Source of the DNA: Ornithinimicrobium sediminis | Lineage (GTDB): Bacteria > Actinomycetota > Actinomycetes > Actinomycetales > Dermatophilaceae | Length of the DNA stretch: 64,000 nt | Direction: 5' to 3' | Assembly: GCF_021272345.1 (NCBI RefSeq) | Contig: NZ_JAJSDQ010000001.1 | Coordinates: 62,001 to 126,000, forward strand | In this document: piece after piece, positions 19,565 to 22,719 of the stretch | Numbering within the stretch: the first letter of the stretch is position 1 | Layout: each line of letters starts with the position of its first letter | Position numbers and translations under genes: made by a program | The notes under the pieces: generated by a model | Database searches by the model: none | What the model was told of the DNA's origin: nothing | What the model saw: the letters and a program-made list of their open reading frames with translations, nothing else

Positions 19565-22495
<2,931 letters not shown>

Positions 22496-22534
22496 CAGCT
22501 CGTCCTTGCTCGTCTGGCGGGCGGGTGCGTGCAC

Positions 22535-22560
22535 AAAAAAGCCCCTCGGTGCCCGAGGGG
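22535..22560 (-). terminator. Rho-independent terminator in the leuS leader
   Basis: On the minus strand CCCCTCGG-GCA-CCGAGGGG, an 8-bp GC-rich stem with a three-base loop, is followed by C and six T residues. It sits only 40 bases before the leuS ATG and about 160 bases after the rpsT stop. That position favours conditional attenuation of leuS over simple termination of rpsT. Confidence 0.85.
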
Positions 22561-22561
22561 T

Positions 22562-22596
22562 CAGCCGCGCTGGGTGGTGCGTCGTCAGCGCGGCTG
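22562..22596 (-). promoter_or_regulatory. Upstream hairpin of the leuS attenuator
   Basis: On the minus strand CAGCCGCGCTG (22586-22596) pairs perfectly with CAGCGCGGCTG (22562-22572), giving an 11-bp stem with a 13-base loop. Its 5' arm contains the last codons and most of the stop codon of the leader ORF. Its 3' arm abuts the terminator. Ribosome position on the leader ORF would therefore control whether this hairpin forms. Confidence 0.7.
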
Positions 22597-22629
22597 CGTA
22601 AGAAGGAGCTGCACGCAGGCCGGAGTCAT
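22585..22629 (-). CDS. Leucine-rich leader peptide for leuS attenuation
   Basis: A 14-codon [17 protein letters not shown] then TGA. Codons 8-10 are CTC CTT CTT; CTT is a rare leucine codon in a genome this GC-rich. An in-frame ATG three codons earlier (22638) overlaps the -10, so 22629 is preferred. No ribosome site is needed if the transcript starts at this ATG. Slow decoding at the Leu codons would report charged tRNA-Leu levels. Classic leader peptides of leu and ilv operons have the same design. This is inference from sequence; no homologue was searched. Confidence 0.7.
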
Positions 22630-22636
22630 GTGCGTC

Positions 22637-22642
22637 ATCGTA
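22637..22642 (-). promoter_or_regulatory. -10 element of the leuS leader transcript
   Basis: TACGAT on the minus strand, seven bases before the leader ATG at 22629. This is the spacing expected for a leaderless start in actinobacteria. No clear -35 is present. It implies leuS has a promoter of its own downstream of rpsT. Confidence 0.55.
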
Positions 22643-22719
22643 GCGCAGAGGGCGCCCTCCCCCGGTGGGGTGGACGCCCTCGCAGCGTGGCCGGCCCGAG
22701 CCGGCGAGCCCGGCTGCGC

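Follow-up and report, generated by a model that had tools for sequence, protein, structure and literature searches.

A leucine-codon leader with abutting hairpins ahead of leuS: a probable transcription attenuator in Ornithinimicrobium sediminis and other Actinobacteria

The stretch analysed here, 64,000 nucleotides of Ornithinimicrobium sediminis (hereafter the window), carries on its minus strand a short leader upstream of leuS, the gene of leucyl-tRNA synthetase. With a probability of roughly three in four, this leader controls leuS as a ribosome-mediated transcription attenuator, with charged tRNA-Leu as the signal. The initial annotation of the window had proposed a Leu-codon attenuator at this place, and the comparison of loci supports the proposal: such a leader was found at 79 of 146 leuS loci. 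Leucine attenuation of leuS, in print found only for Streptomyces, is suggested to be a widespread actinobacterial device. The two hairpins of the leader touch without sharing bases, which raises the question of how a terminator can be disabled by a hairpin lying upstream of it.

Layout and occurrence of the leader

All elements claimed for the layout were found, on the minus strand. The -10 element TACGAT (22637..22642) is part of an extended -10 promoter (TGCGCTACGATG) without a conserved -35 element. Seven bases 3' of it, the ATG at 22629 opens a leader ORF of 14 codons ending at 22585 (22585..22629), which is predicted to be leaderless and contains the control codons CTC CTT CTT (22600..22608), as read from the sequence. 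Segment 2 (CAGCCGCGCTG, 22586..22596) is the 5' arm of an 11-bp hairpin and covers the CAG, CCG and CGC codons and the TG of the stop codon; segment 3 (CAGCGCGGCTG, 22562..22572) is the 3' arm, and the inverted repeat of the two is perfect. A single A (22561), likewise read from the sequence, separates hairpin 2:3 from the terminator stem-loop (22542..22560), which has a GC-rich stem of 8 bp and a 3-nt loop (CCCCTCGG, 22560–22553, and CCGAGGGG, 22549–22542). The T6 tract of the intrinsic terminator (22535..22540) follows one C after the stem. The leuS ATG (22495–22493) lies 39 nt past the T tract, and a Shine-Dalgarno-like AAGGA was noted by eye at 22503..22507. The regulated gene, leuS (19565..22495), matches NCBIfam TIGR00396 with 869.8 bits (cut-off 548.4), and rpsT, upstream of the leader, matches NCBIfam TIGR00029.

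A third helix, absent from the initial annotation, encloses the Leu codons. Its 5' arm is segment 1 (CGG, bulged C, CUGCGU; 22613..22622) and its 3' arm is ACGCAGCCG (22591..22599), which shares bases with segment 2. The duplex has -14.7 kcal/mol in the window (L001 in our numbering of loci). The leader RNA of the window (95 nt) folds with -40.9 kcal/mol, which was equalled by 2 of 200 dinucleotide shuffles (z -2.49). At gathering score, no Rfam family was found in the window or in 17 loci tested; a permissive threshold gave nine matches, all under the gathering scores and to families without an evident link.

Two side observations concern the region 5' of the leader. After rpsT, at 22648–22681, lies an imperfect hairpin (GAGGGCG..CGCCCTC) that has no T tract and reaches the leader promoter region; it is perhaps the terminator of rpsT. 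Moreover, an upstream in-frame ATG (22638–22636) overlaps the -10 element and lies 5' of the predicted transcript start.

The sequence TGCG stands directly before TANNNT in 62 of 78 leuS leaders, and no -35 element is conserved in these 78 (no position upstream of -6 exceeds 0.6 bits). The distance from the -10 element to the start codon was 6–7 nt in 106 and 9–10 nt in 20 of 126 unique leaders (from 144 leaders; 78 of the 126 came from leuS searches). Owing to this spacing of 6–10 nt, the transcript is expected to begin with the leader ORF or no more than a few bases from it. The leader transcript is predicted to be leaderless, with its start at or beside the ATG, and the leaderless start proposed earlier stands as a promoter-based prediction.

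The leader was searched for in 146 actinobacterial leuS upstream regions, with a detector for TANNNT followed after 5–11 nt by an ATG or GTG ORF of 5–25 amino acids containing LL. It was positive in 78 of the 146 regions and in none of the 146 reverse complements; in five dinucleotide shuffles, it was positive in 2, 2, 0, 1 and 0 of 146. Together with L020, a leader with a single Leu codon that was added by hand, 79 loci in 15 of 27 sampled families carry the leader, and 67 do not by this count. The sample was weighted to the family of the window (41 loci, 37 positive), and the family table of leader counts was compiled by hand. L031 was dropped as a duplicate of L001. Genomes without a LeuS match at E 1e-30 were left out (49 of 118 and 37 of 99 in two samples), as were 16 listed LeuS matches, G019 and eight genomes with a distant LeuS.

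A T-rich end was parsed in 71 of the 79 leaders. One of the 71, L072, has an ORF and a different structure; it is included in the 78 detector positives, the 71 parsed leaders and the family table and is absent from later counts. The eight unparsed leaders (L042, L045, L051, L066, L075, L082, L118 and L138) are absent from the ribosome-masking, junction, extension and footprint analyses, which comprise 70 leaders.

The first 30 leuS loci comprised that of the window, 28 further loci from its genus and one locus from a different genus of the family. The leader and both hairpins were present in 30 of 30; the Leu run was reduced to two codons in L008 and to one in L020. The initial annotation had made its proposal depend on the conservation of Leu codons and stems among relatives; both are conserved, and the stems covary. 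Typical leader peptides are MTTRCVLLLTQPR, MRAVRLLLSEPR and VRGLLLLIGPR. A DNA pattern made from the 3' half of the leader was found at 68 places in a named genome collection. LeuS follows directly downstream on the same strand at 65 of them; at the other three, the sequence ends within 140–344 nt and the downstream gene is out of range. The -10 element and the ORF were present at 66 of the 68 places. Named hosts of the leader are, among others, Ornithinimicrobium, Serinicoccus, Jiangella, Prauserella, Amycolatopsis, Actinophytocola, Kutzneria, Frankia, Isoptericola and Streptomyces oceani.

Several variants were seen. The single-Leu leaders L020 (MTTRCVLTQPR) and L036 (VASQQQRLIGPR) retain the first hairpin. 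The detector-negative loci L036 and L092 resemble a one-Leu variant and a damaged variant, respectively. The T tract is weak in most of L021–L029 (TTTCGT; TTTTGT in L026). The entry QEUR01000011.1 (L175), titled Acidobacteria bacterium, contains an Ornithinimicrobium-type leader (MSTRCVLLLIQPR) and LeuS, and its Acidobacteria label is probably wrong.

Hairpins, control codons and the proposed switch

Covariation was assessed in an alignment of 36 sequences, hand-picked for diversity and compact loops, with a structure string after L009. Across both hairpins, 91.2% of the cells were paired. The covariation of the stems, which the initial annotation had proposed as a check, was found: 10 of 17 pairs had changes on both sides, compared with a shuffled mean of 4.9 (0 of 500 shuffles as high) and 0–6 in slid controls, kinship being outside the shuffle model. 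The number of further pair types, a weak measure, was 18 versus 15.8 in shuffled alignments, with 46 of 500 shuffles reaching 18. In the first hairpin, the six outermost pairs (GCCGCG) were kept in 33 to 36 of the 36 sequences. The stop codon lies 5' of the hairpin in 9 of 70 leaders, and the GCCGCG pairs are kept there too, which argues for a constraint on the RNA and not on the Pro-Arg of the peptide.

The third helix is altered on both sides together in L005, L007, L011 and L018 (by eye). Its duplex energy was -8.07 kcal/mol in native and -7.06 kcal/mol in swapped combinations; 0 of 50 swaps reached the native value, the gain being only moderate. Swaps split by genus gave 2 of 200 within the genus and 2 of 200 outside, in a kind of test that kinship inflates. 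In 13 of 78 leaders, including L002, L004 and L016, the duplex did not attain a stability of -5 kcal/mol. Before segment 3 is made, a mean of 3.7 pairs of this helix is expected (8.2 in the window). In the full RNA the mean is 1.2 (2.3 in the window), because hairpin 2:3 wins. Pairing of segments 1 and 2 as a stable ribosome-free state was rejected, as folding favours 2:3 (0.95 on average, 0.90 in the window); according to the folding models, the third helix would at most compete with 2:3 transiently. Hence, untranslated RNA would not be shut off by the Leu-enclosing helix at equilibrium. A role of the Leu codons as an anti-Shine-Dalgarno sequence of leuS (cf. the LEU element of leuA) was considered by eye only and set aside.

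The gap between hairpin 2:3 and the terminator was 0 nt in 41, 1 nt in 27 and 2 nt in 2 of 70 leaders; it was taken from minimum-energy folds with two helices required before the T-rich end, in which marginal pairs may turn a gap of 1 or 2 into 0. While the span of hairpin 2:3 varied from 27 to 77 nt, the gap stayed at 0–1 nt in 68 of the 70. In the unparsed leaders L042, L045, L051 and L066, the hairpins abut too, by eye. No extension of hairpin 2:3 into the following bases was found in 68 of 70 leaders, and one pair was found in two. An extension into the terminator with small bulges was rejected as well, since it comprised at most two pairs in 68 of 70 leaders, and three and four pairs in one leader each. 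The classical form, in which antiterminator and terminator exclude each other through shared bases, was not found in the leuS leaders, and we therefore class them as leader-peptide attenuators without a classical shared-strand switch. The earlier remark that the hairpins abut and that any exclusion would have to work without shared bases is borne out by these gaps. Judged from the sequences, what is new here is the first hairpin lying flush against the terminator without shared bases, an arrangement that is strictly kept, together with a helix around the Leu codons that may transiently compete with this hairpin. The strictness of the arrangement argues that contact between the helices matters.

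The effect of ribosome position was modelled in 70 leaders by barring an assumed footprint from pairing; this footprint reached 12 nt upstream of the P-site codon and 12 nt beyond the first base of the A site. The mean probability of hairpin 2:3 was 0.95 in ribosome-free RNA; with the A site at the first Leu codon it was 0.92, at the last Leu codon 0.12 and at the stop codon 0.01. For the first Leu codon, the value depended on the reach assumed: 0.98 at 10 nt, 0.92 at 12 nt, 0.71 at 14 nt and 0.48 at 16 nt (in the window, 0.86 at 12 nt, 0.62 at 14 nt and 0.37 at 16 nt). The mean probability of the terminator helix, whose median dG was -13.4 kcal/mol, was 0.83 in free RNA and 0.97, 0.94 and 0.91 at the first Leu, last Leu and stop codon, respectively. 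In ribosome-free RNA, it was below 0.5 in 11 of 70 leaders, 0.99 in the window and 0.98 in the Streptomyces-type leader L032. Nearest-neighbour folding of the 70 leaders revealed no mutual exclusion of 2:3 and terminator by base-pairing energies. According to these models, formation of the first hairpin can depend on where the ribosome stands, as far as the uncertain footprint allows. It had been proposed that a ribosome stalled on the Leu codons frees the first hairpin. In the folding models this holds, depending on the footprint, for an A site at the first Leu codon; it fails on the last Leu codon, where the 5' arm is covered.

The last Leu codon was CTT in 72, CTC in 4 and CTG in 2 of 78 leuS leaders. 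In the coding parts of leuS (L001–L087), CTT accounted for 47 of 3915 Leu codons (1.2%) and CTG for 77%, which confirms the rarity of CTT that had been noted before. One tRNA reads both CTC and CTT in the usual scheme. That CTT is preferred to CTC therefore suggests either slow decoding by wobble or a constraint at the level of the RNA. The nucleotide after the last Leu codon was A in 64 of the 78 leaders. The resulting CUUA motif (22602–22599 in the window) is kept as nucleotides though the next residue varies (Thr, Ser, Ile, Met or Arg). The last Leu codon lies 3–5 nt from segment 2 in 68 of 70 leaders, and the first lies at 11–14 nt in 57 and at 16–17 nt in 10 of the 70. In the folding models, a ribosome on the last Leu codon blocks 2:3, so that this codon, both the rarest and the best conserved, fits badly as a sensor.

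The proposed attenuator would work as follows. Transcription would start at the leader ATG, and a ribosome would load directly. With ample charged tRNA-Leu, the ribosome would reach the last Leu codon and the stop codon and cover segment 2; segment 3 would then stay single-stranded, the terminator would fold and transcription would end before leuS. When charged tRNA-Leu is scarce, the ribosome would presumably stall when its A site holds the first Leu codon; its leading edge would then lie at about the base of segment 2, so that hairpin 2:3 could form and leuS would be transcribed. Before segment 3 exists, segment 1 would pair with segment 2 and might delay 2:3. The weakest step is the last: with 2:3 flush against its 5' arm, the terminator may be unable to close its base inside the exit channel of RNA polymerase. 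We favour such a hindrance of the terminator because a stall at the first Leu codon would then raise leuS expression, because the distance at which the first Leu codon is placed nearly matches how far a ribosome reaches and because the adjacent hairpin of Corynebacterium glutamicum ilvBNC has been assigned an antiterminator role.

The flush junction would also suit coaxial stacking, and the same sensor could thus act with the opposite sign. Hairpin 2:3 would stack on the terminator and aid termination, and a ribosome slowed at the last Leu codon would cover segment 2 and cause readthrough. This is unlikely, though the best of the alternatives. It would account for the last Leu codon being fixed as the rare CTT 3–5 nt before segment 2, and a ribosome at this codon does block 2:3 in the models (0.12). 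However, a ribosome at the stop codon blocks 2:3 likewise (0.01), which would mean readthrough in times of plenty, and runs of three or four Leu codons would stall the ribosome too far upstream. Moreover, the terminator is strong by itself (-13.4 kcal/mol, see above), and the role assigned to the adjacent hairpin of C. glutamicum ilvBNC is the opposite one.

Far less probable is an antiterminator that is independent of translation, in which, in the absence of a ribosome, the GAGGGG arm of the terminator is bound by the CU-rich Leu codons. This is the minimum-energy fold in some Ornithinimicrobium leaders, e.g. L009, L010, L013 and L017, and the 11 ribosome-free leaders with a terminator probability below 0.5 would fit it. 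However, the pairing is absent in the window and in L032, with their free terminators at 0.99 and 0.98, and it was rejected as a general switch since neither folds in this way. It would also work in the wrong sense, with expression without translation and termination on stalling. In the four leaders named, a pairing of the Leu codons with the 3' arm of the terminator can enclose the first hairpin; in RNA that is not translated, the terminator would be weakened by it.

Slightly more improbable still is a chance ORF beside an ordinary terminator that belongs to rpsT or to a short RNA: rpsT lies directly upstream, and hairpins with a T tract would end any transcript, but the Leu codons are conserved, a conserved promoter lies right at the ORF, the leader stands before leuS in other families, and in L005, L007, L011, L012 and L014 the upstream sequence differs from the rpsT end of other members of the genus (by eye). 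The usual T-box domains need a longer leader than that of leuS. A T-box or another tRNA- or metabolite-binding riboswitch is hardly credible, even though tRNA synthetase genes of Firmicutes are mostly controlled by T-boxes according to the available part of PMC1262725, since Rfam at gathering score gave no family in the window, in six relatives or at the window's own locus, in line with the earlier view that leuS has no T-box here.

The same design before other genes

A covariance model of the element was searched at E ≤ 0.01 regardless of the gene downstream. It matched in 177 of 296 genomes of a class sample and in 24 of 198 genomes of a phylum sample, and 40 matches were inspected. Of these places, 16 lay before cimA-like genes, two before ilvB, two before leuA, one at a contig end and 19 before leuS or unclear genes. 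NCBIfam named six of the non-leuS genes (three citramalate synthases, one acetolactate synthase and two isopropylmalate synthases); the others were named by N-terminal motif.

The control codons could be tested comparatively, by Ile codons replacing the Leu codons of leuS before a gene of isoleucine synthesis. From 91 genomes with cimA, 30 loci were taken (L335–L364), 28 of which were oriented. Adjacent Ile codons stood at the place of the Leu codons in 10 of the 28 loci and in 0 of 28 reverse complements, e.g. in MTLHLIIT and VTTTVIIT. The gap between hairpin and terminator in these leaders was 0 in nine and 1 in one. The last Ile codon was ATT in five and ATC in five, an even split which indicates that the rare-codon rule is not general. 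The -10 element of the cimA leaders (L295, L298, L300–L309, L325–L328 and 10 of L335–L364, Streptomyces-type included) is often CANNNT, e.g. TGTGGCACACTG. No report of a cimA leader was found in the titles and abstract starts that searches of one open-access library returned, one query being limited by whole-word matching.

Before ilvB, a scan requiring TANNNT gave 0 of 8 loci, and a scan without the -10 condition gave leaders in all eight (seven Streptomyces-type loci and the window's own genome). Their codons are those of Leu, Val and Ile, e.g. ATT CTC GTA CTT. The gap was 0 in all eight of these loci, which were chosen by gene, and in both ilvB loci chosen by the RNA model. Both leuA loci chosen by the RNA model had Leu codons and a gap of 0. 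In the genome of the window, the covariance model found the leuS element with E 6.2e-17 and, in second place, a site before ilvB whose E of 0.12 is not significant alone. This ilvB leader (L365, also L238; contig C11, 286348–286468, minus strand) encodes MHTALVLIAPGRVSR, with CTC GTA CTT ATT and abutting hairpins.

At the loci examined, the control codons appear to follow the function of the gene, which is the best evidence for the codons as a sensor. We propose tentatively, at somewhat worse than even odds, that leuS, leuA, ilvB and cimA share one portable actinobacterial attenuator, in which a leaderless peptide is combined with a necessarily flush hairpin that blocks the terminator by contact and not by competition for bases. 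If true, its switching principle would be distinct from that of shared-strand attenuators, and the citramalate route would have, in the isoleucine leader of cimA, a regulator not described before.

Comparison with known systems

In the classical trp, leu and his attenuators of Enterobacteria, a stalled ribosome selects among competing hairpins, as proposed here. Their antiterminator and terminator have a strand in common, unlike those of the leuS leaders. Leaders of Streptomyces trpS, found at 3 of 14 trpS loci examined (L226, L227 and L229), resemble the leader of the window: a tRNA synthetase gene is preceded by a leaderless peptide (MTTRTCTQLWWAA, MTSVPCRNWWRSS) with control codons, and by hairpins. 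They differ in that the hairpins are 18 nt apart in L226 and L227 and further apart in L229, and a strand of the first hairpin is complementary to the next 5' arm (by eye), which is shared-strand logic.

Attenuators of leuS were predicted in Streptomyces avermitilis and S. coelicolor by Seliverstov et al. 2005 (PMC1262725), and the sections available describe, as in the window, a leader ORF with Leu codons and antiterminator and terminator hairpins upstream of leuS. The prediction covers these two species; the text available never uses the word leaderless, and its Leucine section mentions no abutting junction. In S. lividans TK24, leuL2-leuS was described in 2021 from RNA-seq as leaderless with a terminator (PMC8079986, in the passages available). 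The peptide of leuL2 is MRAVRLLLSEPR, and, like the leader of the window, leuL2 has a Leu run followed by a hairpin and a U stretch. Seven Streptomyces-type leuS loci of our set encode MRAVRLLLSEPR or MRAVRLLLSGPR. The leader of the window differs from leuL2 in the first half of the peptide; leuL2 concerns one species, and the geometry of the antiterminator is absent from the passages available of its description (PMC8079986). The ending LLL-[ST]-x-P-R-stop upstream of leuS is common to both (LLLTQPR in the window, LLLSEPR in S. lividans), with further forms in other families. The initial annotation had regarded a leaderless leader peptide in front of leuS as a notable design; as a novelty it is preceded by the report on S. 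lividans in 2021 and by the attenuators predicted in 2005.

The ilvBNC operon of C. glutamicum is a close parallel, as far as the excerpt of PMC11857589 goes: it has a near-leaderless peptide with the codons CUU and GUA, an anti-antiterminator, an antiterminator and a terminator, and adjacent hairpins. Mutational analysis supports the terminator and the antiterminator, which have three nucleotides in common. Mutations that spared the terminator had moderate to weak effects, and most of the effect followed terminator stability. The shared nucleotides are the boundary trinucleotide GCC (PMC11857589), whereas in the leuS leaders hairpin 2:3 has no extension in 68 of 70. For ilvBNC of S. coelicolor, the substitution of possible control codons had no effect, as cited in the available part of PMC1262725. 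The ilvB-II, ilvB-OMG and ilvB motifs are similar in that their upstream ORFs, rich in branched-chain amino acid codons, have been proposed to work by attenuation (PMC10272879); they concern other genes and sequences, and no Rfam family was matched at gathering score here.

A rule of abutting hairpins for leuS was not found in the accessible parts of published descriptions of leuS leaders. Lopatovskaya et al. 2010 may treat leuS more widely. The element of the window belongs to an already known kind of leuS attenuator; what is new is its occurrence in many more families and the strict abutting arrangement of its hairpins.
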